DNA from: a virus | Reading direction: 5' to 3' (one strand) | IMG/VR virus record: IMGVR_UViG_3300025083_000164 | Location: 1-28,330 of that record | Length of the DNA: 28,330 bases | Part shown: one piece after another, positions 1-23,722 of the stretch | Layout of the letters: every line of letters starts with the position of its first letter | Numbering within the stretch: position 1 is the first letter of the stretch | Made by a program: the position numbers and the translations under genes | Notes under the pieces: model-generated | The model's database searches: none | What the model saw: the letters and a program-made list of their open reading frames with translations, nothing else | What the model was told of the DNA's origin: nothing

Positions 1-1499
1 GTTACTTTGATTTACCTAACGGAACAACTGCACAGAGACCATCTGCTGCAAGTGGAATGATTAGATATAATTCTACATTAAATCTTGCAGAGTATTATGA
101 TGGGACATCATGGAAGGCGATTGATTCTCCTCCAACAGTAACATCTATTTCCCCAGAAACATTTACTGCATCTGGAACAACAATTACTATCACTGGACAA
201 AACTTTCAATCTGGTGCAAATGTTAAATTGATTGATACCAATGGAACAGAGTTGACTCCAGATTCAGTCGCACTCGTTTCTGCATCTTCTATTACATTCG
301 GTACAACTCAGGCGATGGTTGATAATGAAAACGATAAATTTGATGTTAGAGTAACAAATACATCTGGACTTTCTGGAACATTGGATAATGTATTAGAAAT
401 TTCTGATGGAACATTCTCATTTACCCGTTCTGCAACTTCTACACTTTATGATTCTGGAAGAAGTTCTGGATTTGCCGCTGGTGGTTCATTATCTGGTGGT
501 GGTGGAGAATCTGATATATCTATTGTATATGCCGTTACTTCTGGTTCACTTCCTTCTGGTGGTTCTATTAGTTCATCTACTGGTATTGTTACAGGTATTA
601 GTGCAGTTGGTTCAGACACAGTTTCTAACTTTACCGTTACTGCTACTGTTACTGATAGTTCATCTAGCACTGAAACAGAATACACTCGTGCATTTGCATT
701 AACAGTCAAATCACCTACAGTTACATCTTACACATCAACTGGTTCTGGAACATTCAGTGTTCCAACAGGGACTACTGCTATTGATGTTCTAGTCGTTGCC
801 GGCGGTGGGCCTGGCGGTGGTGGTTATCAAGGTGGTGGCGGCGGAGCTGGTGGACTTATCTATAGACCAGCGTTCCCTGTAACCCCAGGCGGTTCTGTAT
901 CTTACTCTGTTGGTAGTGGTGGTCAATTTACTCAACCAGTGGGAACTAACGGACAAAACTCAACATTTGGTTCACTAACTGCTATTGGTGGTGGTCGTGG
1001 GCAATCAGAAACTCACGGAATTGCTTGGGATGATTGGGGCGCCGAGCCTGGCGGTTCTGGAGGTGGTGGTTCTCATGGTGCCCACCCAAACATAAATGGT
1101 AGAACAGGCACTCAACCTCAACAACCAGGCGACTCTGGATCTTATGGATTCGGAAACCCAGGCGGGAATGGTGTTTCTACACCAGGCGTATATACTGGTG
1201 GCGGTGGTGGTGGTGCAAACTCTCAAGGCGGTAACGCCTCTGGTGATGTTGCCGGTTCTGGTGGTGCTGGTAAATCATACTCAATTTCTGGTTCTAGTGT
1301 GACATACTCTGGTGGCGGCGGTGGTTCACACCGTGATGGCGGAACTAACGGTTCTGGTGGTGCTGGTGGTGGTGGTGCTGGTGGCAATAGTGGAACTGCT
1401 GGATACTCAAACCGTGGCGGTGGTGGTGGTGCCGGAAGAGGTAATATTCCAGGCTATGCTGGCGGTGGCGGTTCTGGTATAGTTATTGTGAAGTACTAA
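1..1499 (+). CDS. Glycine-rich Ig-like tail fibre/adhesin, copy 1 (5' end cut by window)
   Basis: The reading frame is open from base 3, and the codons before the first ATG (57) encode the same conserved segment (LPNGTTAQRPSAASG) found inside the full-length paralogues. ATG 57 is therefore internal and the true start lies upstream of the window. Order of parts: a fibre motif ending in YYDGTSWKAIDSPP; an IPT/TIG-like Ig domain (TSISPETFTASG...); a He_PIG-like Ig domain (SLPSGGSISSSTGIVTG); a glycine-rich domain opening with SYTSTGSGTFSVPTGTTAIDV; and the terminus GSGIVIVKY. The role, by family, is a virion-surface fibre or receptor-binding adhesin. The glycine-rich part recalls the polyglycine-II sandwich of phage S16 gp38, which is inference. 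It resembles copy 5 (18310-20097) most in its Ig-like region (shared FAAGGSLSGGGGESD). Confidence is high for a structural fibre, moderate for receptor binding. Confidence 0.8.
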   Translation, partial: YFDLPNGTTAQRPSAASGMIRYNSTLNLAEYYDGTSWKAIDSPPTVTSISPETFTASGTTITITGQNFQSGANVKLIDTNGTELTPDSVALVSASSITFGTTQAMVDNENDKFDVRVTNTSGLSGTLDNVLEISDGTFSFTRSATSTLYDSGRSSGFAAGGSLSGGGGESDISIVYAVTSGSLPSGGSISSSTGIVTGISAVGSDTVSNFTVTATVTDSSSSTETEYTRAFALTVKSPTVTSYTSTGSGTFSVPTGTTAIDVLVVAGGGPGGGGYQGGGGGAGGLIYRPAFPVTPGGSVSYSVGSGGQFTQPVGTNGQNSTFGSLTAIGGGRGQSETHGIAWDDWGAEPGGSGGGGSHGAHPNINGRTGTQPQQPGDSGSYGFGNPGGNGVSTPGVYTGGGGGGANSQGGNASGDVAGSGGAGKSYSISGSSVTYSGGGGGSHRDGGTNGSGGAGGGGAGGNSGTAGYSNRGGGGGAGRGNIPGYAGGGGSGIVIVKY

Positions 1500-1505
1500 T
1501 AAATA
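1498..1505 (+). promoter_or_regulatory. Possible T4-type late promoter (AATAAATA)
   Basis: The octamer matches the T4 late -10 element TATAAATA at 7 of 8 bases and lies 28 bases before the ATG at 1534. It overlaps the stop codon of the preceding fibre gene. The other late genes in this window have exact copies in the same relative place, so this is plausible but not certain. Confidence 0.4.
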
Positions 1506-1533
1506 TGAAAAAGAATTTTAAAGGTAGAAATTA

Positions 1534-2304
1534 ATGGCATACATAGGTGCATCTCCAGCTTACGGAGTATTTAACAGACAGGTTATTACAGGTGACGGTT
1601 CTACTACAGTGTATGACCTAGACTACCCTGTATCTTCAGCAACTCAGTTGATGATTGTATTGGACGGTATCGTTCAAGAGCCAGAATATTCTTACACTGT
1701 AACAACTAGTTCTGGAAGTGGAAAATTAACATTTTCAGAAGCACCAGATAATAATTCTCGTGCATCTATCGTTTATATGGGTAGACAGTTACTTGTTCCT
1801 ACAACAGCAGTATCTTCTCCTCATATTGACACATTTAATGGTAATGGTTCAACAACTTCATTTACACTAACTCGTGTACCTAGTGCTGGTAATGGTGCAA
1901 ACCTTTTAGTTTTCGTTGACAATGTATATCAAAGATATGGTGCAAGTTATTCATATGTAACAAGTGGCGAAACATTAACTTTTAGTGCTGCTCCAGATAG
2001 TGGTACTGCAAATATTCAAGTAATTCAACTTGCAGAGTCAAACAATGTTATTGATACAGTTTTAGATAACTCTATCACAAACGCAAAACTCTCGTTGAGT
2101 TATTCTCCATCACACTTTACTGGTGATGGTTCAGATACAACATTTACTATTACAACTGGACATACAGTTGATACAATACTAGTATTTGAAAACGGAGTCT
2201 GTTTGAAACCGACTACAGACTATACCGTTTCTGGAACAACATTAACAATGGTTTCTGCACCTTTAAATGGTTCAGAGATTTCGGTAAGATATATGCCAAT
2301 TTAA
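1534..2304 (+). CDS. Virion structural protein with three tandem beta-rich repeats
   Basis: This 256-residue protein has no catalytic motif, membrane segment or signal peptide. It consists mainly of three copies of a roughly 65-residue unit, at about residues 17-85, 98-170 and 193-254. Each unit opens with G(D/N)GSTTxFxL, continues through LxVxxDGVxQ or LLVFVDNVYQ, then Y(T/S)Y.V.SG..LTFS.AP, and closes on a beta strand such as IxVxYM. Alternating hydrophobic residues suggest beta-sandwich repeats. An AAAGGTAG-type ribosome site lies before the ATG. Its position between two glycine-rich fibre genes suggests a tail or fibre component, perhaps an adaptor that holds the fibres. No specific T4 counterpart is recognised. 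Confidence 0.65.
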   Translation: MAYIGASPAYGVFNRQVITGDGSTTVYDLDYPVSSATQLMIVLDGIVQEPEYSYTVTTSSGSGKLTFSEAPDNNSRASIVYMGRQLLVPTTAVSSPHIDTFNGNGSTTSFTLTRVPSAGNGANLLVFVDNVYQRYGASYSYVTSGETLTFSAAPDSGTANIQVIQLAESNNVIDTVLDNSITNAKLSLSYSPSHFTGDGSDTTFTITTGHTVDTILVFENGVCLKPTTDYTVSGTTLTMVSAPLNGSEISVRYMPI

Positions 2305-2314
2305 GGAATGAAAG

Positions 2315-3919
2315 ATGCCAACAAGTAGAGCCAAAGACCTCGCAGACTTTATTGCAAAACAATCAAGTAGTGCAGATGATATTTTAGAAACAGGTGCATT
2401 GCAACTTCCTGCTGGAACAACAGGAGAAAGACCAACTGCTGTAGAAGGTATGCTTAGATATAACTCAACACTAGACTTAGCAGAGTATTATGATGGAAAT
2501 AACTGGAAAGCAATTGATTCCCCACCAACAATAACATCTATTTCTCCAGACAATTTCGATACTGCTGGTGATACAATTACTGTTGCTGGTGCAAACTTTC
2601 AGTCTGGCGCAACAGTAAAAATTAAAGCTGCAGACGGTAGTGAATTTTCAGCATCAAGTGTAACAGTTACAAATTCTTCAACTATATCATTTGATATTAC
2701 ATCAGCAATGGTGGCAGATGATAATGACCCCTATGATGTTATTGTATTAAACACTTCTGGACTTTCTGGGACTTTGGCAGCTTCATTAGACTTTGCACCA
2801 GAACCAGCATGGACTGTTGGAGCTGGTAGTCTTGCAAGCATCTATGATTCGGGAAGAAGTTCTATTTCAATTACAACAGGTGCAACTTCAACAGAGTCAG
2901 ATGCAACAATTACCTATGCGGTAACTACAGGTTCTTTACCTAGTGGGTTATCTATAGCATCTGGTACAGGAACAATTACTGGAACAGCATCTGCTGTTGG
3001 TTCTGATACAACAAGTACATTTACTCTTACTGCAACTGCAACAGATAGTAGTAGTAATACAACAACAAATACAAGACAATATTCTATTGTAGTAAAAGCA
3101 CCAGCAATAACCTCTTACACTTCAACTGGTTCTGGAACATTTAGTGTTCCATCTGGACTAACAGCACTAGACGTATTAGTCATTGGTGGCGGCGCCGGTG
3201 GCGGTGGTGCTGGTTCTGATGATACAGCTGGTGGCGGTGGTGGTGCTGGTGGTCTAATTTATAGACCCGCATTTCCTGTAACTCCATCTGGTTCAATTTC
3301 ATATAGTGTTGGTGGCGGCGGTGGCCCGTCAGGCAATGGACTTGATGCTGGCGGTAATCCAGGCACAGATTCAACATTTGGAACACTCACTGCTAAAGGT
3401 GGCGGTGGCGGTGGTTCATATGCTAGTTATAGTGGTCAAAATGGTGGTTCTGGTGGTGGTGGAGCAACTCAACCTCAACGCCAACAAGGCGGTGCTGGAA
3501 TTCAACCACAACAACCTGGCGACTCTGGATCTTATGGATTTGGTAATCCAGGCGGACAAGCAGCCAACTATAGTCCTCCAGCACAGGGTGCGACTTCTCC
3601 CAACGCTGGTGGCGGTGGCGGTGCTGGACGTGCTGGATACAATCATAACGAATCTCCAAGTGCAGGCGGTGGTACTAGTAAATCATACTCAATCTCTGGT
3701 TCACCAGTAGCATATGCTGGCGGTGGAGGCGGCGGTGGAGGAAATGGCGCTGGTGGTGGCGGTGGCGCTGGCCCAGGCCAACCAAGTGCTCAATCTGGAA
3801 ATGGTGATAACGCAACTGCAAACCGTGGTAGCGGTGGCGGTGGTGCTAACAGTCACGGAAATGGTGGTAGCCACAGTGGTGGTTCTGGCGGTTCTGGTGT
3901 CATTATCGTAAAGTACTAA
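2315..3919 (+). CDS. Glycine-rich Ig-like tail fibre/adhesin, copy 2
   Basis: This is a complete paralogue of 534 residues. The N-terminus (MPTSRAKDLADFIAKQ) differs from the other copies and may be the attachment segment. It is followed by the shared motif TTGERPTAVEGMLRYNSTLDLAEYYDG, split here only by name: TTGERP, then LRYNSTLDLAEYYDG. Next come an IPT/TIG-like domain (TSISPDNFDTAGDTITVAG), a He_PIG-like domain (GSLPSGLSIASGTGTITG) and a glycine-rich domain from about residue 260. The end is GGSGVIIVKY. The gene starts 10 bases after the previous stop, with GGAATGAAAG upstream, so the two genes are probably co-transcribed. The Ig-like part and the last 30-odd bases match copy 3, while its SYGFGNPGG and GKSYSISGS blocks match copies 1 and 4. 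Likely role: distal fibre or receptor-binding protein. Confidence 0.8.
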   Translation: MPTSRAKDLADFIAKQSSSADDILETGALQLPAGTTGERPTAVEGMLRYNSTLDLAEYYDGNNWKAIDSPPTITSISPDNFDTAGDTITVAGANFQSGATVKIKAADGSEFSASSVTVTNSSTISFDITSAMVADDNDPYDVIVLNTSGLSGTLAASLDFAPEPAWTVGAGSLASIYDSGRSSISITTGATSTESDATITYAVTTGSLPSGLSIASGTGTITGTASAVGSDTTSTFTLTATATDSSSNTTTNTRQYSIVVKAPAITSYTSTGSGTFSVPSGLTALDVLVIGGGAGGGGAGSDDTAGGGGGAGGLIYRPAFPVTPSGSISYSVGGGGGPSGNGLDAGGNPGTDSTFGTLTAKGGGGGGSYASYSGQNGGSGGGGATQPQRQQGGAGIQPQQPGDSGSYGFGNPGGQAANYSPPAQGATSPNAGGGGGAGRAGYNHNESPSAGGGTSKSYSISGSPVAYAGGGGGGGGNGAGGGGGAGPGQPSAQSGNGDNATANRGSGGGGANSHGNGGSHSGGSGGSGVIIVKY

Positions 3920-3946
3920 ATAGGATTAAAGGACAGGATAAACTAA

Positions 3947-5698
3947 ATGCCAATTTCAAAAATTAAAGGTGGTGCAATTAATGATGATGCAATCTCAACT
4001 GCAAAGATAGTTGATGATGCTGTTACATCTCCAAAAATTGTAGACTCATACACAACTGCTCTTCAAACTAATCCAGAATTCAGTGGAACTGAAGCAGCAA
4101 GAATGCCACAAGGTACAACTGCTCAACGAGCATCTGCACAGGCTGGTGATTTAAGATTTAATACAACACTTTCTTTAATGGAATACTATGATGGAAGTCA
4201 ATGGAAATCAATTGATTCCCCACCAACTATTACTTCAATTTCTCCAGATAATTTTGATACTGCTGGAGATACTATTACTATTAGTGGTTCAAACTTTCAA
4301 TCGGGAGCAACAGTTAAGATTGTTGCAGCAGATAATGCTGAATTTTCAGCATCAAGTGTAACAGTTACAAATTCTTCAACTATAACATTTGATATTACAT
4401 CAGCAATGGTTGCCGATGATAATGACCCTTATAGTGTAGTAGTTACAAACAATTCTGGACTTTCTGGAACTTTAGCAGCTGGTTTAGACTTCGCACCAGA
4501 ACCAGCATGGACTGTTGCGGCAGGAACTCTTCATACAATATTTGATACAAATAGAACTGATGCACAAAGTATTACAACAGGTGCAACTTCAACAGAATCA
4601 GATGCAACAATGTCATATGCGGTAACTACTGGTGCTCTTCCTAGTGGACTTTCAATTTCAAGTTCTACAGGAACAATTACTGGTACTACATCAGAAGTTG
4701 GTAGTGATACAACAGTAACATTTACAATTACTGCAACTGCAACTGATAGTTCTGGTAACACAACAACAAACACAAGACAATATTCTATAATTCAGAAAGC
4801 ACCTGTAATTACATCTTACACATCTACTGGTTCTGGAACATTCTCTGTTCCAAGTGGACTAACATCTGTTGATGTACTTGTGGTCGCTGGCGGTGGTGCT
4901 GGTGGTAAATTCGACCCTGGCCTCTATGGTGGTGGCGGTGGTGGTGCTGGTGGTCTAATTTTTAGACCTTCATTTCCTGTAACTCCATCTGGTTCAATTG
5001 CATATAGTGTTGGAGCTGGTGGTAATAATTCATATGGACACAATCAAGCAAATCCTCAAGAAAAAGGACAAGATTCAACATTCGGATCATTAACTACTAA
5101 AGGTGGTGGGTGTGGTGCTACAACAGGTACGCCTGGTACATCAACTGCTTTACAAGGCGGTTCTGGTGGTGGACATTGTTATGGTAGCGGTGGGCCTACA
5201 TCTGTGCCAGAAACTGCGAACTCTGCTATTGGTCTCTTTGGCAACCCTTCGGGTCGTAAAGGTGGAGATGCAACTCAACCTCAAGTTGGTGGTGATTCTT
5301 CCACTTATGGTTTTGGAAACTCTGGTGGTGATGGAGAATATACTACTGGACATGGATCTGGCGGTGGCGGTGCTGGTGGTATTGGGTATGACTATGCTAG
5401 AAATGGAGCGCCACAAGGTGGTGGTAACGGTCATGGTGGTATTGGTAAATCATACGATATCTCTGGTTCAGAAATAGCATATGCTGGCGGTGGCGGTGGC
5501 GGTAGTTACTGGAATTATGGACTTGGTGCTGCTGGTGGTGGTAATGGTGGAACGAATGGTGGACAAGGTAGTCAAGGCACTACAGCATCACAATCAGCTA
5601 CTGCAAACCGTGGTTCTGGTGGTGGCGGTTCAGCTGCAGCTCCAGGCCCAACCTTTCAGGCAAGTGGCGGTTCTGGTGTCATTATCGTAAAGTACTAA
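3947..5698 (+). CDS. Glycine-rich Ig-like tail fibre/adhesin, copy 3
   Basis: This is a complete paralogue of 583 residues. Its N-terminus (KIKGGAINDDAISTAKIVDDAVTSPKIVD, given here as GGAINDDAI, STAKIVDDAVT) carries the short A-I-x-TAKI-x-D-x-A-V-T repeats typical of fibre shafts. These are followed by TTAQRASAQAGDLRFNTT, an IPT/TIG-like domain, a He_PIG-like domain and a long glycine-rich domain ending GGSGVIIVKY. Its glycine-rich loops are the most divergent in sequence (for example GLFGNPSGRKGG), while the framework blocks are kept. It shares the YDISGS block with copy 5 rather than the YSISGS block of copies 1, 2 and 4. Likely role: alternative receptor-binding fibre. A consensus host-type promoter begins immediately after its stop codon. 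Confidence 0.8.
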   Translation: MPISKIKGGAINDDAISTAKIVDDAVTSPKIVDSYTTALQTNPEFSGTEAARMPQGTTAQRASAQAGDLRFNTTLSLMEYYDGSQWKSIDSPPTITSISPDNFDTAGDTITISGSNFQSGATVKIVAADNAEFSASSVTVTNSSTITFDITSAMVADDNDPYSVVVTNNSGLSGTLAAGLDFAPEPAWTVAAGTLHTIFDTNRTDAQSITTGATSTESDATMSYAVTTGALPSGLSISSSTGTITGTTSEVGSDTTVTFTITATATDSSGNTTTNTRQYSIIQKAPVITSYTSTGSGTFSVPSGLTSVDVLVVAGGGAGGKFDPGLYGGGGGGAGGLIFRPSFPVTPSGSIAYSVGAGGNNSYGHNQANPQEKGQDSTFGSLTTKGGGCGATTGTPGTSTALQGGSGGGHCYGSGGPTSVPETANSAIGLFGNPSGRKGGDATQPQVGGDSSTYGFGNSGGDGEYTTGHGSGGGGAGGIGYDYARNGAPQGGGNGHGGIGKSYDISGSEIAYAGGGGGGSYWNYGLGAAGGGNGGTNGGQGSQGTTASQSATANRGSGGGGSAAAPGPTFQASGGSGVIIVKY

Positions 5699-5705
5699 AA
5701 ACCTA

Positions 5706-5734
5706 TTGACATTGTACCTAAATATAGGTATAAT
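5706..5734 (+). promoter_or_regulatory. Perfect sigma70 promoter (TTGACA-17-TATAAT) with internal inverted repeat
   Basis: TTGACA at 5706-5711 and TATAAT at 5729-5734 are both exact consensus hexamers, separated by exactly 17 bases. The expected start of transcription is near 5741, and the first ATG is at 5771 with AAAGGAG at 5756-5762. The spacer and the first bases of the -10 form a perfect inverted repeat, TACCTA-AATA-TAGGTA (5715-5730), which could be an operator. The promoter would drive the small protein and oxygenase genes up to 8311. Confidence 0.85.
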
Positions 5735-5770
5735 GAAACTAATAATTCGTAATTCAAAGGAGCGATAATT

Positions 5771-6157
5771 ATGGCTAAAAAAGCAATGGGGAATTCTCCC
5801 TATGATGAATCTGTTTTTGATTATGGTGATCTTACTGATGATCATAAAGAAGCAGTAAAAAAATGTTTAGAACTTGCTAAGAAAGCAGGAGTCCACGAAC
5901 AATTCATTGAGATTATAAAAGTAAAATTTAATCTTTCTACTCTCCCAACATATGATATGGCAAACTCTGAAACATGGAAATCCATGAAATCAGATGATAA
6001 CCTGTCTTGTTCTTCTGGAGGACATACTCAAGCAAATGGTATGAACTATCCTTATGTTTCAGTAATGGCAGATATTCGTGATATCGATAAGTGGTTAGCA
6101 GGTGAAATCACAAACTTATCTAATATGAAAAGTAGCGCTGAAGAAAACGCTAAATAG
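5771..6157 (+). CDS. Small unknown protein, paralogue of 17588-17905
   Basis: I do not recognise the family of this 128-residue soluble protein. The N-terminal half is helical and charged (DDHKEAVKKCLELAKKAG, then EQFIEIIKVKF). The second half has NLSCSSGGH..., MNYPYVSVMADIRDIDKW. The same pattern (helix, G, F-x-E-x-IK-x-x-F, P-x-x-D, N-x-x-C, G-x-x-YP-x-x-S, DIR, K) appears in the 105-residue product of 17588-17905. Both copies sit directly beside a 2OG/Fe(II) oxygenase and just after a glycine-rich fibre gene. This is the first gene after a consensus sigma70 promoter, with AAAGGAG eight bases before the ATG, so early expression is likely. A helper or substrate role for the oxygenases is inference only. 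Confidence 0.75.
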   Translation: MAKKAMGNSPYDESVFDYGDLTDDHKEAVKKCLELAKKAGVHEQFIEIIKVKFNLSTLPTYDMANSETWKSMKSDDNLSCSSGGHTQANGMNYPYVSVMADIRDIDKWLAGEITNLSNMKSSAEENAK

Positions 6158-6192
6158 TATTACAATAAGTTTTTAAATAATGGAGATATATT

Positions 6193-6816
6193 ATGTCATT
6201 TACTGATGGTAAAGATACAGGTGAAAGTACCTCTTTCACTGAAGCAAGTAAAACTTCCCTAACTCAAACACAACAACAACCTCGTTTCGTTGTTATTTCT
6301 GCAAAGATTTTTACAGAAGAACAGTGTCAAGAAATTCTTGATGACACTATTCCAGAGCTCTGGAGAGATATGAAGTTTATGGGAGATAACCAAAAACTTG
6401 CAAAAGCAAAAATACACAAGATACACAGTGACGATAAGAATTCGTTTCCTCATGCACCAATCTATGAAGCATTTAAAACAATTGACAATCAGGTATTCCA
6501 ATGCAGTACTCAAGGACATCATATACATGATTATATGACTGCCCAAGAGTTTTCTAGTGGGGGATACTATTCTATGCACCAAGATTTGGTTACACAGATG
6601 AACACAAGAAAACTAACTGCAATTGTTAATCTTACTAAACGTGAAGATTATGATGGTGGTGATTTGCGATTCTTAAATATTCCAAACAGTAAAGAATTTA
6701 ATGAACAGGGGTATATTCATATATTCCCATCTTTCTTTGCATGGGAAATTACTAAGATTAGAAAGGGTAAGAAAAAAATTATTACTGCCTTTGCACATGG
6801 AGAGGAGTGGAAGTAA
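6193..6816 (+). CDS. 2OG/Fe(II) oxygenase-like protein, probably degenerate active site
   Basis: This 207-residue protein has the double-stranded beta-helix pattern of the prolyl-4-hydroxylase/PKHD group: GYYSMHQD (His129, Asp131), the strand LTAIVNLT, YDGGDLRF, and IHIFPSFFAWEITKIRKGKKKIITAF. In the family the last segment normally reads F-P-S-x-x-x-H-x-V-x-x-x-x-x-G-x-R. Here the distal iron-ligand His is Trp184 and the 2-oxoglutarate-binding Arg is Lys194. The two proteins encoded next keep their His ligands. The start is supported by GGAG at 6181-6184. The gene ends in a TAATG overlap with the next oxygenase gene. It may be a catalytically dead partner or have altered chemistry. The fold assignment is fairly secure; loss of activity is inferred from the residues. 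Confidence 0.75.
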   Translation: MSFTDGKDTGESTSFTEASKTSLTQTQQQPRFVVISAKIFTEEQCQEILDDTIPELWRDMKFMGDNQKLAKAKIHKIHSDDKNSFPHAPIYEAFKTIDNQVFQCSTQGHHIHDYMTAQEFSSGGYYSMHQDLVTQMNTRKLTAIVNLTKREDYDGGDLRFLNIPNSKEFNEQGYIHIFPSFFAWEITKIRKGKKKIITAFAHGEEWK

Positions 6817-7661
6817 TGATACTTGAAAACGATTATTATTTTTTTAAAGCTGCATTGACAGATGACCAATGTGATGAAATTATTATGCGTGGTGAGCGTG
6901 AAATGAAAGCAGCACAGAAACGTGGCGAGTCTATTGATGCAACTACCTTTGGACGCAATGATAAAGCAGGCATGATTGATTCTGGTATTGATGAGTCTGA
7001 ACTTGTTGCACAGGATGCTATGACATCCCAACAACTTAAAAAGAAAGGGTTGGCTAGAGCAGAAGGTAAAGATAAAACCTTTATTCGTGATACTCATGTT
7101 TCTTGGTTAAATGACCAAGATATCTATGGTTGGTTACATCCCTATCTGCAACGTGCAAATCATAGTGCTGGTTGGAACTTCGATTGGAATTGGAGTGAGT
7201 CTCTTCAGTTTACAAAATATGGAGAACATCAATTTTATGGATGGCATCCAGATGCTGGTTCTAAACCAAATCCACCATTTTGGGATGTTAGAAACCCACC
7301 AAAGGGTTACGAGTATATTGAAAAAGAAGAGAATGGAGAAACAGTAAGATATCCAAAAGACAATGGTAATGGTAAAGATGGTGCATCTGCAAAATGGATA
7401 TTTAATCCAAACTATGCTGGTAAAATTCGTAAACTTTCTATGACAGTAAACTTAACTAATCCTAAGAATTATAAAGGTGGAAACTTAAAGTTTGACTTTG
7501 GGCCTCACGCTGCAAGAGCAAGATATCATACTTGTACAGAAATTCGTGAACGTGGTTCTATTATTGTATTTCCTTCAGATAGGTATCATCAAGTGACACC
7601 AATCACCAGTGGAACAAGATACTCTCTTGTTATGTGGACATTAGGAGATCCTTGGAAATGA
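6816..7661 (+). CDS. 2OG/Fe(II)-dependent dioxygenase (PKHD/prolyl-4-hydroxylase type)
   Basis: The product is 281 residues when read from ATG 6816, which overlaps the previous stop (TAATG) and follows AGGAG (6803-6807). A GTG three codons upstream is less likely. All ligands are present: His144 and Asp146 (YGWHPDAG), His258 (FPSDRYHQVTP) and the 2OG-binding Arg268 (SGTRYSLVMW). The expected reaction is hydroxylation of a protein or other substrate with 2-oxoglutarate and O2. Between HxD and the next conserved strand (RKLSMTVNLTNP) there is an extra segment of about 50 residues (150-205, rich in Pro, Gly and charged residues), which may shape substrate choice. It is the middle of three translationally coupled oxygenase genes. 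The substrate is unknown. Confidence 0.85.
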   Translation: MILENDYYFFKAALTDDQCDEIIMRGEREMKAAQKRGESIDATTFGRNDKAGMIDSGIDESELVAQDAMTSQQLKKKGLARAEGKDKTFIRDTHVSWLNDQDIYGWLHPYLQRANHSAGWNFDWNWSESLQFTKYGEHQFYGWHPDAGSKPNPPFWDVRNPPKGYEYIEKEENGETVRYPKDNGNGKDGASAKWIFNPNYAGKIRKLSMTVNLTNPKNYKGGNLKFDFGPHAARARYHTCTEIRERGSIIVFPSDRYHQVTPITSGTRYSLVMWTLGDPWK

Positions 7662-8311
7662 CATTTTTTTTAGAAAACAGATACGCCTTTGCAGAAGGAC
7701 TAATTCCTAAAGACCTTTGTTCTGTAGCAACACAGTATGTCCAGTTTAGAGAAAAATATTTTGATGAAAGAGAAGACCCTGTAGATGGACAAATACCAGA
7801 TACACATTCAATTTATAATGATACATTAATGGAAACATTGATGTTCTTTATGCATCCTCATATGGAAAGAATTACTGGACTTAAACTTTGTCCAACATAC
7901 ACATACTATCGTAATTATAAACCAGGCGATGAACTTAAACGTCATTCTGATAGATACTCTTGTGAAATTTCTACAACAGTTTGCTTAGGATATGATTATA
8001 AAGATGTCGCAGAAGATTATCAATGGGGTATGTATGTCGACCCAGAATCAAATCATACTTTGCCAGAAAATAAAGGTGAAGATGGTCTGTTTAAATCGGA
8101 GTCTCGTGATGGGGTGTTATTAAAACAAAACCCAGGCGATTGTATTATATATCGTGGATGTGAAATTGAACACTGGAGAGATAAGTTTGAAGTTGGTGAG
8201 GGTTCTTACCAATCTCAAGTATTCATGCATTATATTGATATGAATGGCCCATACTATCCAGAGTATAAATTCGATAAACGAGTTGGTATAGGCGCTCCAA
8301 AAAGTCTTTAA
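7658..8311 (+). CDS. 2OG/Fe(II)-dependent oxygenase family protein
   Basis: The product is 217 residues from ATG 7658, which overlaps the previous stop (ATGA) and follows AGGAG at 7643-7647. An in-frame ATG at 7634 lies inside the preceding gene and is not needed. Iron ligands are visible as His96 and Asp98 (LKRHSDRYSCEIS) and His172 (GDCIIYRGCEIEHWRDKF). No clear Arg follows at the usual place (YQSQVFMHYID), although Arg174 is near. The sequence is of a different subfamily from the two genes before it, so the three are not simple duplicates. It ends the operon started at 5706. By family it is a hydroxylase; the substrate is not visible from sequence. Confidence 0.8.
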   Translation: MTFFLENRYAFAEGLIPKDLCSVATQYVQFREKYFDEREDPVDGQIPDTHSIYNDTLMETLMFFMHPHMERITGLKLCPTYTYYRNYKPGDELKRHSDRYSCEISTTVCLGYDYKDVAEDYQWGMYVDPESNHTLPENKGEDGLFKSESRDGVLLKQNPGDCIIYRGCEIEHWRDKFEVGEGSYQSQVFMHYIDMNGPYYPEYKFDKRVGIGAPKSL

Positions 8312-8336
8312 AAACTACCTATAATCCAAAATCTTT

Positions 8337-8380
8337 AACACAGTTTCCTTATAAATAGATATATAAGAGGAGACTGTGTT
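8337..8380 (+). promoter_or_regulatory. Hairpin sequestering the ribosome binding site, with a late promoter in its loop
   Basis: Bases 8337-8348 (AACACAGTTTCC) pair with 8369-8380 (GGAGACTGTGTT) over 12 positions, 11 Watson-Crick and one G-U. The pair 8349/8368 and a wobble 8350/8367 extend the stem. The right arm contains the Shine-Dalgarno GAGGAG (8367-8372) of the gene at 8383. The late promoter TATAAATA (8350-8357) lies at the base of the loop. RNA arriving from the sigma70 promoter at 5706 would fold and hide the site. RNA started at the late promoter (about 8364) lacks the left arm. This matches the arrangement known for T4 gene e. Confidence 0.75.
8350..8357 (+). promoter_or_regulatory. 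T4-type late promoter (TATAAATA)
   Basis: This is an exact match to the T4 late -10 consensus, 26 bases before ATG 8383, in the first gap after the oxygenase operon. The expected start of transcription is about 8363-8365, inside the hairpin loop. Confidence 0.8.
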
Positions 8381-8382
8381 CA

Positions 8383-8721
8383 ATGGCGACAATATCAAAT
8401 ATATTTATTAACCAAGGTGCTGACTTTAGTACTACTGTTACTATATCAGATAGCAATGGTTCTGCACTAGACTTATCTAGTTATACTGCACTTGCACAGA
8501 TTCGTAAAACCTATGAGTCAACGACTGCAACAGGGTTCACAGCAACTTTCGATTCTGATAGAACCACTGGTAAAATCACACTCTCCCTTTCTGATACTCA
8601 AACCTCTTCTCTTGAATCGGGACGTTATGTTTATGACTTACTCATTACAGGCGCAGCGAATGATAAGACTAGAGTAGTTGAAGGTATTGCTACTGTTAAT
8701 CCAAGTGTATCTAGGAGTTAA
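8383..8721 (+). CDS. Small beta-rich virion structural protein
   Basis: This 112-residue protein (ATISNIFINQGADFSTTVTI, ending VVEGIATVNPSVSRS) has alternating strands: DLSSYTALAQIRKTY, GKITLSLSDTQTSSLESGRYVYDLLI. I recall the same pattern (NQGADF, YTxxAQxRK, LESGRYVYD, VEGI-TV-P) in structural proteins of T4-like cyanophages. It suggests an Ig-like or baseplate-adaptor fold. Exact location in the virion is unknown. Its ribosome site GAGGAG is held in a hairpin, so late expression seems to be enforced at translation. The next gene starts four bases after its stop. Confidence 0.7.
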   Translation: MATISNIFINQGADFSTTVTISDSNGSALDLSSYTALAQIRKTYESTTATGFTATFDSDRTTGKITLSLSDTQTSSLESGRYVYDLLITGAANDKTRVVEGIATVNPSVSRS

Positions 8722-8725
8722 ATAA

Positions 8726-8998
8726 ATGTCAATCAGCGCAAAGATAAATACATCTAGTACAATACAGGGTTCGGTATCGCAAGGAAACCAACCCCAAGTA
8801 ACTCGTGTTACAGTGCCAGGCCCAAAGGGTGACTCTGGTGCAGCAGGGGGTAAATTAGTAGAACTTGCAGATGTAAACGCAGACTCCGTTACGGATGGAG
8901 CATTGATTCAATATGATGGTGGAACTGAAAAATTTGTTATAACGAATGTAGTTGAAACTGATACAGGCACAATACGTCTGAACGGTGGAACTTTTTAA
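8726..8998 (+). CDS. Small structural protein with a collagen-like segment
   Basis: This 90-residue protein has an N-terminal Ser/Gln-rich stretch, then VTVPGPKGDSGAAGG, a short run of G-x-y triplets like collagen (GPK GDS GAA). It is followed by a small C-terminal part (LADVNADSVTDGALIQYDG..EKFV) whose VxDGALxxYDGxxxKF pattern is common in tail-fibre proteins. AGGAG at 8712-8716 precedes the ATG. It probably trimerises as a linker or fibre part. The collagen-like run ends only 900 bases downstream of three 2OG oxygenases, the enzyme family that includes prolyl and lysyl hydroxylases, but no direct link is shown. Confidence 0.65.
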   Translation: MSISAKINTSSTIQGSVSQGNQPQVTRVTVPGPKGDSGAAGGKLVELADVNADSVTDGALIQYDGGTEKFVITNVVETDTGTIRLNGGTF

Positions 8999-9025
8999 TA
9001 TAAACTTAAACAAGGTAGAAAAATA

Positions 9026-11089
9026 ATGTCAACAATTATTCAAATCAAACGCACCACTACGGCAAATCTACCATCTACGTTAGAACAAGGCGAATTATCA
9101 TATATCTATGATACTAGTTCGACTGACACAGATGCAGGCGGTAACGGTGGAAGAATCTATATCGGTGACCCAACATCGAATTCAAACACTCCAATTAAGA
9201 TTGGCGGTAAATATTACACCGACTTAATGGAACATAGTCACGGTACGCTCACTGCAAGTGCAGCTTTACTCGTAGACTCAAACAAAAAAATTAATGAGTT
9301 GTTTGTAGACAATCTCAAAGTTGATGGTAATGCAATTACTTCAACAGACACAAATGGCGATATTACCGTAACTCCAAACGGAACTGGTAAGTCTATCATA
9401 ACAAACATCTATACAGATGCATCTACATCCCTTCAAGAATATATCGAAGATATTTCTGGCGGTTCTGTAACTGCTGGTGAAGGTATTGATGTCACTTATG
9501 ATGATGCAGCTGGAACAACTACAATTGCTGGTGAAGATGCAAGTACATCTAATAAAGGTATTGCGTCTTTTGACAGTAATGATTTTGATGTAGCAAGTGG
9601 TGCTGTTACATTGGAAGATACTGTTGTTAAAGCAATCACTACAGATGACGGTGCATTGACTGTTGCTTCACATGGGATATCAATCCTTGGTGGTGAAGGA
9701 ATGGATGTTAATCATACTGGTACAGCAATTACTGTTAAAGGTGAAGATGCAAGTACAACTAATAAAGGTATTGCTTCTTTCGCAACGGCAGACTTTGCAG
9801 TATCATCTGGTGCAGTAACTATTAAAGCATTGGGTGTTGGAACTGCTCAAATCGCAGCAGATGCTGTAAATGGTGATAAGATTGCAGACAACGCTATTGA
9901 CTCAGAACATATTACAAATGGTTCTGTTGATAATGGACATCTTTCTGGTGGTATCGCAAATGCAAAACTTGCTAACGATGGTATTACAATCGGTTCAGAT
10001 GACACATCACTTGGTGATACAATCACAGACTTAAACGGATTGACTTCTGTTGATGTTGACAACTTAACACTAGATGGTAACACACTATCAAGTACTGATA
10101 CAAACGGTGACTTAAACCTAACTCCAAATGGAACAGGTACAGTTGTTGTTCCTTCTGGTTATGAGGGACGTGCTGGATTTACTGCACAGTCACTTGTTAA
10201 CAAAACATATGTTGACCAAGTTGCAAACGGACTTGATGTTAAAGCATCTGTAAAAGTTGCTACAACAGCAAACCTTACAACAAACTATAATAATAGTGCT
10301 GGTACATTGACTGCAACTTCAAATGGTGCAATCACAATTGACGGTGTTTCTCTATCAGTAAATGATAGAGTACTTGTTAAAGACCAGACAACACAAACAC
10401 AGAATGGTTTCTATAAAGTAACTACTGTTGGTTCTGGTTCTGCAGCATTTGTTCTTACAAGAACTCCAGACGCAAACGAGGCATCTGAAATTACAGGTGG
10501 AGCATTTACTTTCGTTGAAGAAGGTACTGCAAACGCAGACAATGGTTATGTTGCAACACACAACGGTGTTCCAACTTTAGGTACTGATTCTATTACATTC
10601 GACCAATTCTCTGGTGCTGGACAAATTTCTGCTGGTGCAGCATTGTCTAAGAATGGTAATACTATTGACGTAGAAGTAGACGATAGTTCAATCGAAATAT
10701 CTGGTGATGCACTACAAGTTAAAGCACTTGGTATCACTAACGGTATGTTAGCTGGTTCAATCGCAAATGCAAAACTTTCAAACAGTTCTGTTACTATCAA
10801 TTCAACAGCACTTGCACTAGGTGGTTCACTTACACTGGACACTGGTGATTTTGCAGAGAATGGAAACTTATTCTACACAGACGAAAGAGTTGATGACAGA
10901 ATTAATGCACTCTTCCAAGCAGGAGAAGGTATTGATTTAACATACAATGACTCTTCAAACACATTTACTGTTGATGCAGAACTTGCTACTGCAACAAACA
11001 GAGGTGTTGCATCTTTTGCTACGGCAAACTTTACAGTCTCAAGTGGAGCAGTTACCGTTACTGGTATTGATGGTGGAACTTATTCATAA
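9026..11089 (+). CDS. Large tail-fibre protein with internal repeats
   Basis: This 687-residue protein begins STIIQIKRTTTANLPSTLEQGELSYIYD, written in two parts as IQIKRTTTANLPSTLEQGEL and SYIYD, a usual N-terminal motif of marine myovirus fibres. It has three copies of a repeat (about residues 150-200, 220-270 and 630-685): GEG(I/M)D(V/L)x..., then (T/N)(N/S)(K/R)G(I/V)ASF, F.VSSGAVT. Between them is shaft sequence with A-K-L and GTAQIAADAVNGDKIADNAI motifs. About residues 375-540 hold a domain found in many fibres: VNGL/VANGLDVKASVKVATTAN, VNDRVLVKDQTTQTQNGFYKV. Near the end is GNLFYTDERVDDRI. A trimeric beta-structured fibre is expected. No cleaving or enzymatic motif was seen. It is followed after 16 bases by another fibre gene. 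Confidence 0.8.
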   Translation: MSTIIQIKRTTTANLPSTLEQGELSYIYDTSSTDTDAGGNGGRIYIGDPTSNSNTPIKIGGKYYTDLMEHSHGTLTASAALLVDSNKKINELFVDNLKVDGNAITSTDTNGDITVTPNGTGKSIITNIYTDASTSLQEYIEDISGGSVTAGEGIDVTYDDAAGTTTIAGEDASTSNKGIASFDSNDFDVASGAVTLEDTVVKAITTDDGALTVASHGISILGGEGMDVNHTGTAITVKGEDASTTNKGIASFATADFAVSSGAVTIKALGVGTAQIAADAVNGDKIADNAIDSEHITNGSVDNGHLSGGIANAKLANDGITIGSDDTSLGDTITDLNGLTSVDVDNLTLDGNTLSSTDTNGDLNLTPNGTGTVVVPSGYEGRAGFTAQSLVNKTYVDQVANGLDVKASVKVATTANLTTNYNNSAGTLTATSNGAITIDGVSLSVNDRVLVKDQTTQTQNGFYKVTTVGSGSAAFVLTRTPDANEASEITGGAFTFVEEGTANADNGYVATHNGVPTLGTDSITFDQFSGAGQISAGAALSKNGNTIDVEVDDSSIEISGDALQVKALGITNGMLAGSIANAKLSNSSVTINSTALALGGSLTLDTGDFAENGNLFYTDERVDDRINALFQAGEGIDLTYNDSSNTFTVDAELATATNRGVASFATANFTVSSGAVTVTGIDGGTYS

Positions 11090-11105
11090 GGGATAGGGTT
11101 ACACT

Positions 11106-12620
11106 ATGTCAACCGTAATAAAACTTAAAAAAAGTGAAACAGCACTTTCCAAACCCTCAACGAGTGACCTCGTTGCGGGCGAAGTTGCGATTAATGCTCT
11201 CGACCAGAGAATCTTTGTTCGTGATAGTAATAGTAAGATTATTACTATCGGTGAAGCTGGTGGTAAGAGACATGAAAGTGCGGCAGTAGAACATACTGTT
11301 ACGGTTGCAACAAAAACTAATAAACACAGATATAACGGAACTGGTTCGTCAAGTGGTTATAAGATTGATGGTTCATTCTCTCCTACGATTGAATTGGTGC
11401 CAGGCAACACTTACAAATTCGACCAAGCAGATTCGTCTAACTCTGGACACCCTCTTCGATTCTATTACGAAGCAGATAAAACAACAGCCTTTACTACTGG
11501 TGTAACAACATCTGGTACGCCTGGAAATTCTGGTGCATATACTCAGATAGTTGTTGCAGATACAACTCCCTCAGTTCTTCATTACCAATGTTCTAATCAT
11601 GGTTACATGGGAAACCAAGTTGTTATCGGAACAAGAAACCTAACTGGACTTGATACTGGTGACTTGGGAGAAGGAACTAATCTTTATTATACAGATGCTA
11701 GATTTGATACAAGATTAGGAACTAAAGATACAGGTGATTTATCAGAAGGTTCTAACCTTTATTATACTGATGCAAGAGTACTAACTAAAATCAATGCAAC
11801 AGGCATTGACGCACTTAGTGATGTTGACACAACAACTGCATCTCCATCTAATGGACAAGCACTTGTTTGGGATGGTTCTCAATGGGAGCCTGGCACAGTT
11901 GGTGGACAAATCACGGTACAAGACGAAGGTTCTTCATTATCAACATCTGCATCTACAATCAACTTTGTAGGTTCTGGTGTTGTCGCATCTGGAACAGGTT
12001 CTACAAAAACTATTACAATCTCTGGCGGTGGAGGTGGTGGAGGAATCGCATTATCAGACATAAGTGTTGGTTCAGAAGCAACTGCAGCTGGTGATGGTGG
12101 ACTTGCATATAATAATACTTCAGGCGTATTTACATACACTCCCCCAACATTAAGTGGTATCGGTGGAACAACAGACAATGTAACTGAGGGTTCTAGCAAT
12201 CTTTACTTCACAGACGCAAGAATAGATACACATCTAAACCAATCTACTGCATCAGCCAATCAAGTTCTTTCTTGGGATGGTAGTGATTATGCGTGGGTTA
12301 ATCAGTCTGGTGGTGGAGGCGGTGGTGGTAATGCATTCACTAATTTCGCAGTAAGTGGACAAAGTACAATACAAGCAGATAGTTCAACAGACACATTAAC
12401 TCTAGTTGGAGCAGGACTAAATAGTATAACAACGAATGCATCATCTGACACAGTAACAATAGGAACTCCTACTGGAATACCTTTTGTGAAAGAGGATGGA
12501 ACATCAACAAGTTTAAATATGAGTGTTGTGGCAGGAACATTGTCAACAGCAGTTGCTAGTTTATACATACCTTTCGTCAAAGACGATGGAACTAGTGTTA
12601 CTACACTTGTAATGAGTTAA
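11106..12620 (+). CDS. Tail-fibre protein with a cupredoxin-like domain
   Basis: This 504-residue protein opens with STVIKLKKSETALSKPS and LVAGEVAINALDQRIFVRD, a common marine fibre N-terminus. Residues of about 68-175 resemble a cupredoxin: IELVPGNTYKFDQ, NSGHPLRFYYE (His115), then LHYQCSNHGYMGNQV (Cys162, His165, Met168), the His...Cys-x2-His-x2-Met order of a type-1 copper site. After this come NLYYTDAR repeats (at about 191, 211 and 370), the segment DVDTTTASPSNGQALVWDGSQW and its second version ASANQVLSWDGSDYAW, and two Gly runs. The repeats and the WDG motif are known from fibres of T4-like cyanophages. Copper binding is inferred from the residues only; the domain could be purely structural. 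Confidence 0.75.
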   Translation: MSTVIKLKKSETALSKPSTSDLVAGEVAINALDQRIFVRDSNSKIITIGEAGGKRHESAAVEHTVTVATKTNKHRYNGTGSSSGYKIDGSFSPTIELVPGNTYKFDQADSSNSGHPLRFYYEADKTTAFTTGVTTSGTPGNSGAYTQIVVADTTPSVLHYQCSNHGYMGNQVVIGTRNLTGLDTGDLGEGTNLYYTDARFDTRLGTKDTGDLSEGSNLYYTDARVLTKINATGIDALSDVDTTTASPSNGQALVWDGSQWEPGTVGGQITVQDEGSSLSTSASTINFVGSGVVASGTGSTKTITISGGGGGGGIALSDISVGSEATAAGDGGLAYNNTSGVFTYTPPTLSGIGGTTDNVTEGSSNLYFTDARIDTHLNQSTASANQVLSWDGSDYAWVNQSGGGGGGGNAFTNFAVSGQSTIQADSSTDTLTLVGAGLNSITTNASSDTVTIGTPTGIPFVKEDGTSTSLNMSVVAGTLSTAVASLYIPFVKDDGTSVTTLVMS

Positions 12621-12629
12621 GGATAAAAG

Positions 12630-12845
12630 ATGGCAGCGAAAACCCCAATTAAAGCAACATTTACTGGTTCGGACGTAACAGGACTTGCAGAATTTGTGGC
12701 AGCAGACTTTATCCCTATCTCCGATGGTGGTACAGGTGCAGTAACAGAAGCTGGTGCTAGAACAGCATTGGATGTAGATTCGAAAGCAGAAGTAACAACA
12801 AAAGCAGTCAATAACGGTATTACGTTTGCGATTGCATTAGGATAA
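12630..12845 (+). CDS. Small fibre-associated protein
   Basis: This 71-residue protein sits between the cupredoxin-containing fibre gene and gene 13. GGATAAAAG precedes the ATG. The segment FIPISDGGTGAVTEAGARTALDV has the DGGTGA-x-x-x-x-x-AR-x-AL pattern, which occurs at the ends of many phage tail fibres. It could be a separate fibre piece, or the detached C-terminal part of the preceding fibre; there is a clean TAA and a new ATG between them. It is not recognised as a T4 gene. Confidence 0.6.
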   Translation: MAAKTPIKATFTGSDVTGLAEFVAADFIPISDGGTGAVTEAGARTALDVDSKAEVTTKAVNNGITFAIALG

Positions 12846-12849
12846 CGAT

Positions 12850-13665
12850 ATGGCAATACCAAGTACAAGAGCAACATTCAAAGAATACTGTCTTAGAAGT
12901 TTAGGTAAGCCAGTAATTGAAATCAATGTTGACCCAGACCAAGTAGAAGATAGAATTGATGAAGCACTTCAATATTTTTCACAGTATCATTATGATGGTA
13001 TTGAAAGAGTATACCTAAAGTATCAGATTACACAAGCAGATATTGACAGGGCAAGAAGTGATAATTCATTACCTTCTGTAACAGATGTTGATGCATCTAC
13101 AACAGCAGTATGGAAAGAACAGAATAATTATATTCCTGTTCCATCTACCATTATGTCTATAGTCAAAGTATTTCCTTTGACAGATAAAGCATCTTTGAAT
13201 ATGTTCGATGTACGTTATCAGATGAGACTGAATGACTTATATGACTTTAGTTCTACTTCTGTTATACATTACGAAATGACAATGCAACACCTAGACCTTC
13301 TAGACCATATTTTGATTGGTGAGACTGCAATACGTCACAACCAACACCAGAATAGATTGTATTTGGATGCAGACTTTAAAACTGATTATGTTGATGGAGA
13401 TTATATCGTCATTGAATGTTATCGTAAATTAGACCCAGCAACTTTCACAGATGTGTGGGATGACATATTCTTGAAGAAGTATGCAACACAACTTATTAAA
13501 ATGCAGTGGGGTGCAAACCTTTCTAAATTCCAAGGCATTCAAATGTTGGGTGGAGTTGCCCTAAATGGCGAACAGATATATACTCAAGCACAAGAACAAA
13601 TTGAGAAATTAGAAGAACAAATTCAACTGGCATATGAGTTGCCTCCAATGCATATGATAGGTTAA
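12850..13665 (+). CDS. gp13: Neck protein gp13 (head completion)
   Basis: The 271 residues match my memory of T4-like marine gp13: the N-terminus FKEYCLRSLGKPVIEINVD and then QVEDRIDEALQYFSQYHYDG are characteristic. T4 gp13 is 309 residues. In T4 this protein joins the head portal after packaging and, with gp14, forms the neck to which the tail docks. Four bases separate it from the preceding gene and three from gene 14, and the order 13-14-15 supports the call. No unusual feature was seen. Confidence 0.88.
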   Translation: MAIPSTRATFKEYCLRSLGKPVIEINVDPDQVEDRIDEALQYFSQYHYDGIERVYLKYQITQADIDRARSDNSLPSVTDVDASTTAVWKEQNNYIPVPSTIMSIVKVFPLTDKASLNMFDVRYQMRLNDLYDFSSTSVIHYEMTMQHLDLLDHILIGETAIRHNQHQNRLYLDADFKTDYVDGDYIVIECYRKLDPATFTDVWDDIFLKKYATQLIKMQWGANLSKFQGIQMLGGVALNGEQIYTQAQEQIEKLEEQIQLAYELPPMHMIG

Positions 13666-13668
13666 GAA

Positions 13669-14529
13669 ATGCCAACTAATGTATACTTTGATACAGGTAC
13701 AAAACCAGAGCAGAACCTCTATGAAGATTTAATCATAGAACAACTGCGTATTTACGGTCAGGATTGTTATTACATTCCTCGTAACATGGTGTCTGAAGAT
13801 AAAGTATTTGGAGAAGATTCACTATCTAAGTTTGAAGATGCATACATGGTTGAAATGTATGTTGATAACATAGATGGATATGAAGGCGAAAAAGAATTGA
13901 TGTCTAAGTTTGGTTTAGACATTCAAGACGATGCAACATTCACAGTTGCAAGAAGAAGATGGGAACAGTTTGTTACGATAGATAATAATCTTGTTGTATC
14001 ATCAAGACCAAACGAAGGTGATTTAGTATACTGGCCTAAAGGAAGTAAACTGTTTGAAATCACATTTGTTGACCATGATGACCCATTCTATCAAGTACAC
14101 AATCTACCGACATACAAACTAAAATGCAAAACCTTTGAATACGGTTCAGAGGATTTGGATACTGGTATTGCAGAGATTGATGCAATTGAAGCAGATAACA
14201 GTTTAGACCAGTTGTCACATCAAATGACTCTAGAGAATGCAACAACATTCAACGAGTTCTTTGCTTTGGAACAGGGAACACCTTCAGATGGACAACTCAT
14301 ACTAGAGGATTCATTACTTGGTGATAAAATTCTATCTGAGACAGTAGATAATACTGGTTCAATTATTATGGAAAATAATGTAGAGGGTGCTGATGCGTCC
14401 TATATAATACTAGAAACTTATCGGGTTGACACTATTGATGAAAGCGCTCAGAATGATTTATTTGATAGTGAAGAGGATACAATATTAGATTTTACCGAAT
14501 CAAATCCATTCGGTGATGCTGGGAAATAA
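13669..14529 (+). CDS. gp14: Neck protein gp14 (head completion)
   Basis: The 286 residues begin PTNVYFDTGTKPEQNLYEDL and include IEQLRIYGQDCYYIPR, typical of T4-like gp14 (T4: 256 residues). Its role in T4 is to complete the neck with gp13 and connect head to tail. The C-terminal half is acidic and contains a short repetitive stretch (QLILEDSLLG, SIIMENNVEG, YIILETYR) that makes it longer than the T4 protein. It lies in the 13-14-15 order with three-base gaps on both sides. Confidence 0.88.
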   Translation: MPTNVYFDTGTKPEQNLYEDLIIEQLRIYGQDCYYIPRNMVSEDKVFGEDSLSKFEDAYMVEMYVDNIDGYEGEKELMSKFGLDIQDDATFTVARRRWEQFVTIDNNLVVSSRPNEGDLVYWPKGSKLFEITFVDHDDPFYQVHNLPTYKLKCKTFEYGSEDLDTGIAEIDAIEADNSLDQLSHQMTLENATTFNEFFALEQGTPSDGQLILEDSLLGDKILSETVDNTGSIIMENNVEGADASYIILETYRVDTIDESAQNDLFDSEEDTILDFTESNPFGDAGK

Positions 14530-14532
14530 ATT

Positions 14533-15354
14533 ATGATTGGAAATTACTTTTACAACGAATCGACAAGGAATGTAGTGGTAGGATTTGGTTCTATCTTCAA
14601 CAACATTCAACTTGTTAAGAAAGACAATTCTGGTAACGTGACACAGACTATGAAGGTGCCTCTTGCATATGGCCCAAAACAGAAGTGGTTATCAAGATTA
14701 AACCAAGACCCTAACCTTACTAAAAAGGTTGCGGTTACTTTACCTCGTATTGGTTTTGAGATTAGTGGTTTAGAATACGACCCATCTCGTAAACTGAATA
14801 AGATGATAAAGGTGAAGAAGCATGCTGACGGAGCAGATAAAGACCAATTAAAATCTGGTTTCATGCCTGTTCCTTATAATGTTAGTTTTGAACTATTCAT
14901 TATGAGTAAGAACTCAGACGATGCATTACAAATTTTAGAACAGATTCTACCATACTTTCAACCAGAGTACACAGTTACTTTGAGAGAAGTACCAGAATTA
15001 GATATTGTTAGAGATGTTCCTGTAACATTAAACAGTATTAGTTATGAAGATAGTTATGAGGGAGACTTTGCAAGTCGTAGAGCAATTATCTACACACTAA
15101 GTTTCTCTGCAAAGTATTATCTATATGGCCCTGTAAGTTCACAGAATGTTATTCGAAGTGTACAGGTTGACCAATATACAGATATGCCAGTGAACTCTCC
15201 TAAGAGAGAACAGAGATATTCTGCAACACCAAAACCAGCAGATGTTGCTCCATCAGATTGGGATGTCGATGACGGTGATTTCGGATTCAATGAGACTACA
15301 AGTTTCTATGAAGATGCAAAAACTTTCGATCCATCTAGTGGACAAGACGTATAA
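14533..15354 (+). CDS. gp15: Tail completion / sheath stabiliser gp15
   Basis: The 273 residues are nearly the length of T4 gp15 (272). Recognisable segments include the N-terminal MIGNYFYNESTRNVVVGFGS, IFNNIQLVKKD, VPLAYGPKQKWLSRL and LPRIGFEISGLEYDPSRKL. In T4 it forms the hexameric ring capping tube and sheath and binds the neck. The stop codon TAA is embedded in the late promoter TATAAATA (15350-15357) used by the next gene. After this gene the conserved T4 order is interrupted by an accessory insertion before gene 16. Confidence 0.92.
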   Translation: MIGNYFYNESTRNVVVGFGSIFNNIQLVKKDNSGNVTQTMKVPLAYGPKQKWLSRLNQDPNLTKKVAVTLPRIGFEISGLEYDPSRKLNKMIKVKKHADGADKDQLKSGFMPVPYNVSFELFIMSKNSDDALQILEQILPYFQPEYTVTLREVPELDIVRDVPVTLNSISYEDSYEGDFASRRAIIYTLSFSAKYYLYGPVSSQNVIRSVQVDQYTDMPVNSPKREQRYSATPKPADVAPSDWDVDDGDFGFNETTSFYEDAKTFDPSSGQDV

Positions 15355-23714: not shown

Positions 23715-23722
23715 TATTTATA
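23715..23722 (-). promoter_or_regulatory. Possible T4-type late promoter (TATAAATA), minus strand
   Basis: This exact octamer on the minus strand ends six bases before the ATG of the HNH-like gene. If used, transcription would start at or near the start codon and give a leaderless message. The distance is unusual, so the assignment is tentative. Confidence 0.35.

Follow-up and report, generated by a model that had tools for sequence, protein, structure and literature searches.

Can a hairpin in front of a phage structural gene restrict its translation to RNA from the gene's own promoter? The question is raised by positions 8337–8380 of a 28 330-nucleotide stretch of viral DNA (IMG/VR record IMGVR_UViG_3300025083_000164; this whole stretch is called the window below). 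There, a first-pass annotation had seen a stem hiding a ribosome site and a late promoter in its loop, and had compared the arrangement with T4 gene e. We consider the hairpin to be a cis-acting translational gate of the T4 gene e type, with a probability of about 0.77. The computed basis of this reading is the anatomy of the hairpin, the difference in folding between two transcript forms, conservation, the existence of independent stems and wobble-type changes; from these we infer the start site, the read-through, the effect on translation and its timing.

Anatomy of the hairpin and accessibility of the ribosome site

The left, masking arm (8337–8350, + strand; AACACAGTTTCCTT) pairs with the right arm (8367–8380, + strand; GAGGAGACTGTGTT) across a 16-nt loop (ATAAATAGATATATAA, same strand), and the right arm is followed by CA and then by the ATG at 8383. 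Described previously as 12 pairs with one wobble, extendable by two, the full stem has 14 pairs, two of which are G·U (U8345–G8372 and U8350–G8367, as read from the sequence). The Shine-Dalgarno (SD) sequence GAGGAG (8367–8372, +) lies entirely inside the right arm, as had been claimed, and folding predicts that it is masked in read-through RNA. Folding of 8320–8400 gave a minimum free energy of −18.3 kcal/mol (z = −3.85), and none of 200 shuffled sequences was equally stable. Stems of at least 14 contiguous pairs with a loop of at most 30 nt number four in the window against about one in shuffled sequences; a bare 14-pair stem is by itself only mildly unusual. What is beyond chance is that stem, SD and late promoter coincide, and that they do so in relatives too. 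Most of these relatives have a 3 × 3 internal loop (CAA/GAC) that is replaced in the window by GTT/GAC, so that two short helices become one continuous 14-bp stem. No Rfam match at gathering score was found in the window. Elsewhere, a stem of 15 pairs closed by 5 nt (26441–26476), located in the first part of the gene for the portal protein (26401), is longer than would be expected by chance for the window.

The T4-type late promoter TATAAATA occupies positions 8350–8357 (+); its first T belongs to the last stem pair and only the remainder is in the loop, to which the whole motif had been assigned. In T4 late promoters, the TATA box spans −13 to −6 (PMC2988020), and A8363 (+) is therefore the predicted +1. 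This geometry supports a late start inside the loop, at 8363 and not near 8364. Since A8363 is 13 nt beyond the last base of the left arm, late RNA with such a start would lack that arm. TATAAATA also occurs once on each strand (minus at 23722, plus at 23766) on either side of a 12-bp hairpin (23734–23746/23758–23769, in the segment 23722–23773); the two are apparently divergent late promoters, with the genes 23410 (−) and 23829 (+) as their targets.

Both transcript forms were folded, as the annotation had proposed. In read-through RNA, the value for an unpaired SD (8367–8372) was 0.059 in every context from 81 to 301 nt (8320–8400 up to 8200–8500); in RNA starting at 8363, the openness predicted by folding was 0.69–0.996. 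The same scan applied to T4 gene e as a positive control returned 0.0007 for read-through RNA and 0.99 for late RNA (proximal promoter). Among the 23 genes of the window with a recognisable SD, that of 8383 is the most occluded (0.02), and of the window's four late promoters that precede a gene, only the one at 8383 is gated. Folding predicts occlusion of the SD in read-through RNA of most relatives too; for the types L057, L058 and L066, the site is predicted to be no more than 24–67% open in late RNA.

Genes on either side and proposed mechanism

An oxygenase operon precedes the hairpin on the same strand. The sigma70-type promoter that had been claimed at 5706 is a perfect match (TTGACA-17-TATAAT, 5706–5734, +; 12/12 consensus positions), is the sole such match in 5400–9100 and would serve this operon; no terminator-like site was found on the + strand of 5400–9100, and hence none between this promoter and the hairpin. 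The first gene (5771–6157, +) encodes a small phrog_10937 protein of unknown function (PHROGs 2.8e-7). It is followed by two 2OG-Fe(II) oxygenase genes (6193–6816, +, PF13640 4.4e-7; 6807–7661, +, PF13640 1.3e-11) and by a gene for an auxiliary metabolic protein of phrog_2954/3531 (7634–8311, +; PHROGs 7.3e-44) that carries the PHROGs label ‘ferrochelatase’ and is without a Pfam match. The 5771–6157 protein has a paralogue encoded at 17588–17905 (31% identity, E 6e-16) and each of the two genes has an oxygenase gene of the 2OG-Fe(II) type as its neighbour (at 6193 and 16995, respectively); the pair could possibly be partner proteins of these oxygenases.

The gated gene itself (8383–8721, +) codes for a 112-aa tail protein (phrog_3304, ‘L-shaped tail fiber protein assembly’/phrog_1084; PHROGs 4.6e-28). 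Directly downstream are tail-fibre-type genes (8726–12845, +), identified by PHROGs matches for 8726–8998 and 11106–12620 and by synteny with phage Melnitz (see below), and then neck genes and a tail-sheath stabiliser gene of gp13, gp14 and gp15 type (12850–15354, +; phrog_211, phrog_460/679 and phrog_227). Several paralogous glycine-rich tail or adhesin-like proteins are encoded at 57–5698, 15387–16961 and 18310–20097; they have repeated modules in common, e.g. ‘VDVLVVAGGG’ and the ending ‘SGIVIVKY’, which suggests that the gated module is surrounded by a repertoire of recombining adhesins. A carbamoyltransferase gene (PF16861, PF02543; 20081–21766, −) has a tail-type gene on one side and that of the terminase large subunit on the other, and is missing at the corresponding place in Melnitz.

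The gate would operate as follows. RNA polymerase that had started at any promoter further upstream, the obvious one here being of sigma70 type at 5706, would copy both arms; the resulting 14-bp stem would hide GAGGAG, and the 8383 gene would not be initiated on such read-through RNA. Once TATAAATA is used by the late, gp55-type sigma system of the phage, RNA would begin at about 8363 inside the loop, devoid of the left arm and with an open ribosome site. As the first gene of the tail-fibre and neck unit, 8383 would thus be made solely from its own late promoter.

Conservation of the proposed gate in related phages

The closest named phages are the Methylophilales phage Melnitz isolates (Kyanoviridae), in which the orthologue of the 8383 protein is 86–89% identical. 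The annotation of Melnitz-2 includes a late sigma factor, a late coactivator and a sliding clamp, i.e. a gp55/gp33/gp45-type late transcription system whose genes lie beyond the part of the genome covered by the window. A set of 80 IMG/VR loci encoding an 8383-type protein was assembled, and TATAAATA is present at the same position in nearly all of those with flanking sequence. For each distinct upstream sequence, pairing was assessed between the segment upstream of +1 and the leader downstream, the null being obtained by shuffling the segment upstream of TATAAATA.

Arm complementarity was significant (P ≤ 0.05) in 33 of the 44 distinct sequences upstream of IMG/VR orthologues. The corresponding figures were 2 of 29 for other late promoters on the same contigs and 5 of 113 for random TATAAATA..GGAG..ATG sites drawn from all IMG/VR, so that no enrichment in gating is seen at late promoters in general. 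Fisher tests of orthologues versus controls are extreme but inflated by relatedness, the orthologue counts not being phylogenetically independent, and the count of independent stems is a sounder measure. At least five lineages have unrelated stems: the window/Melnitz type (including the L071 variant), L049, L066, L057/L058 and L074. When arms were swapped in a matrix, those of L049, L066, L057 and L074 each paired best with their own partner. In L057, L058 and L074, the promoter itself is within the left arm, as in T4 gene e. Wherever the flank of a gated orthologue is long enough, the gene immediately before it runs in the same direction.

The annotation had held that relatives with a stem broken without compensating changes would speak against a gate. 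A few such cases exist: HTVC008M has the promoter without the hairpin, Mosig has neither, and the L064/L224 group has kept the left arm and lost the right one. HTVC008M, Mosig and the L064 group, which lie outside the gated clades, represent a loss or absence and not the rule. Neither promoter nor hairpin was found in the four cyanophage homologues checked.

Two other layouts were noticed among the orthologues. In L080 and L082, which have the same upstream sequence, the orthologue is without promoter and hairpin, and a gene located 38 nt downstream of it (MANSPAQNQF; L080:1950–2330, scored in L080) is preceded by a late promoter that is gated, which suggests a displacement of the gate by one gene along with the boundary. 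In L042/L043 and L067, the late promoter is only 7–10 nt from the ATG of the orthologue; there is no SD on read-through RNA and the message is predicted to be leaderless or nearly so, possibly an alternative way to tie translation to the gene's own promoter.

A second putatively gated gene and possible termination

The complete genome of Melnitz-2, with about 17 late promoters followed by a gene, was scanned as well. Two of them are clearly gated, that of gene 184 (the 8383 orthologue, with its gate at MZ577096 position 107306) and that of the gp5-OB baseplate gene at 76363. In this second family (MZ577096 76363; L084:26463; loci L288–L367), the gene is preceded by tRNAs and small ORFs. Complementarity is significant in 15 of 28 distinct sequences and the occluded/open pattern is found in 22 of the 28, with unrelated stems (AATCCCTTGT/ACAAGGGATT, GATCCCCTTT/AAAGGGGATT and TTCCTCTT/AAGAGGAA). 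Another candidate, the post-capsid gene 210 of Melnitz, looked gated in one genome and was rejected on the basis of its family (1/38); its C/T-rich flank looks like the tail of the capsid gene's terminator, and it is regarded as a false positive.

Many gp5-OB stems are followed by a terminator-like T run, and a T run also comes directly after the stem in orthologues of the L057 type and in some of the L058 type (AAGGGGATTTTTTT, AAGGGTTTTTTT). The hairpin could be an intrinsic terminator or attenuator of upstream transcripts, which a promoter situated in the loop would escape; gating would then be transcriptional. That blocking read-through is useful can be seen from the 9 of 72 distinct upstream contexts in which a clear, separate terminator is found just ahead of the gate, a feature pointing to an insulation role. 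However, the stem at 8383 ends in GUGUUCAAUGG, with two U only, and is not a terminator-like site on the + strand; the T run is missing in most close relatives as well. Moreover, the SD is always within the pairing, for which there would be no need where a separate terminator exists. We regard termination as an unlikely explanation of the 8383 hairpin; at gp5-OB, it may be an addition to masking or the main effect.

Substitutions in the two arms

In the close family of 26 sequences, six pair columns are without any unpaired sequence (7-48, 10-45, 11-44, 15-40, 18-37 and 19-36), and all the changes in these columns, eight cells, are to G-U or U-G, which points to selection at the RNA level. Double changes are found in the outer stem, U-A to G-C at 5-50 and C-G to U-A at 4-51, and in many relatives the outer stem covers the start codon as well. 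Where the annotation had asked about covarying changes, G·U-type and some double substitutions are seen; formal covariation is modest, its score in the close family being reached by 15 of 500 shuffles. Because automatic alignment of the left and right arms produced some spurious A-C mismatches in L070, L073 and L024, column counts were relied upon instead.

Some of the conservation of the left arm may be related to the promoter, as a portion of this arm, the 18-mer ACACAATCCTTATAAATA, is also present at other late promoters. Taken further, this would make the left arm nothing but an extended late-promoter DNA motif, whose CCT resembles an anti-SD and is complementary to the SD by accident. CT does precede TATAAATA at several Melnitz late promoters, and the 18-mer is found ahead of at least one other gene type without a right arm (L223, L241, L245 and L251), in addition to the L064/L224 group. 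We nevertheless find this explanation very improbable. The complementarity reaches past CCT into an ACACA/TGTGT arm and the start codon; unrelated stems occur in several lineages; and CCT ahead of TATAAATA, its anti-SD part, is found at only 1 of 113 random sites, and is therefore not merely promoter sequence. In addition, L033 has lost CCT and still pairs through other bases, and the invariantly paired columns change in wobble fashion. The gene that follows the 18-mer in L223, L237, L241, L245, L246, L251 and similar loci starts with MA(K/Q/R)SKYIQSVLKAAG; its ATG is only 4–6 nt past TATAAATA, so that late RNA is predicted to have no leader.

Binding of the inverted repeat, as DNA, by a repressor, a recombination protein or a packaging protein is hardly credible. 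The repeat is palindromic, and DNA homology with Melnitz begins inside it, at 8346, like a recombination boundary. However, arms of different lineages are wholly unlike in sequence and yet remain complementary and still contain the SD. G-U substitutions, not expected to be favoured in a DNA site, are retained, and A-C mismatches, the reverse-strand type, are rarer than G-U (12 versus 21 cells, symmetric aligner). An RNase III site was discarded, the stem being judged too short.

What the proposed gate may separate

The gate logic proposed by the annotation is supported by folding, conservation, wobble-type changes, independent stems and the similar behaviour of the gene e control. The purpose that it had been given, separation of an early oxygenase operon from the structural genes, is only partly right and is not supported in that form, because the same gate is found in relatives behind other genes. 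Melnitz has no oxygenase operon at this place and its upstream gene is a long tail-type gene; in relatives, the gene directly upstream of the gate is tail-fibre or adhesin-like, or another variable gene. This position implies that the gate predates the oxygenase operon. Several of the upstream tail-fibre or adhesin-like genes carry their own ungated TATAAATA, and there the gate would separate late from late. In the genome of the window, the translational gate would, in comparison with the oxygenase operon, leave the gene off early and on late, and an earlier temporal class of the upstream RNA is plausible in view of the sigma70 promoter; in relatives it is doubtful. The best reading of the general effect is that translation would be restricted to RNA from the gene's own promoter, whatever the class of the upstream RNA. 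Across the family, a conserved structural module would be insulated from read-through of a variable upstream block.

More tentatively, late promoters embedded in loops could be recurrent module insulators in marine T4-like phages, in front of tail-fibre assembly and gp5 baseplate modules: an RNA mask, reinforced in some lineages by a terminator, would make virion modules deaf to upstream variable or auxiliary metabolic blocks. If so, cargo operons could be swapped without misexpression of structural genes. The gate lies at the junction of variable cargo and conserved structural genes and would be a cheap marker of module boundaries; it also suggests how auxiliary metabolic operons can insert beside virion genes with expression undisturbed.

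Comparison with known systems

The closest parallel is T4 gene e (lysozyme), where the SD is also in the right arm, TATAAATA is between the arms, the left arm is absent from late RNA and a co-directional gene lies upstream. Translation of gene e from the long RNA is reduced about 100-fold. The two cases differ in several respects: (i) the gated gene is a tail protein gene here and the lysozyme gene in T4, (ii) the stems are without sequence kinship, (iii) a single promoter lies in a mostly unpaired loop here, whereas T4 has two promoters and (iv) the phage is of the Melnitz kind (Kyanoviridae relatives) and not a T-even. The late-promoter/hairpin translational switch of gene e has been described (PMC3014915). 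A review that took in four marine cyanophages considered gene e alone, which is absent from them (PMC3014915), and no earlier description of gates in the present marine phages was found in an open-access subset of the literature.

A ribosome-binding site hidden in RNA from an upstream promoter is also found for T4 soc and 49 and for homing endonuclease genes of T4 and Aeh1 (I-TevI, I-TevII, I-TevIII, segB and mobE); for the endonuclease genes, a late promoter is placed such that late RNA is without the structure (PMC2988022, PMC3014915). Those endonuclease genes are intron-encoded or inserted mobile genes, whereas the gene gated here opens a conserved virion module. The split ribosome sites of T4 genes 25 and 38 likewise involve RNA structure at a T4-type initiation region, but there the structure joins SD and AUG and is activating, while here it would mask the SD. 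The logic of the gate is thus already known from coliphages, Aeromonas phage genes and homing endonucleases; what appears to be new is its location before conserved virion genes of relatives of phages that infect SAR11 and OM43, abundant bacteria of the ocean, with comparative support.
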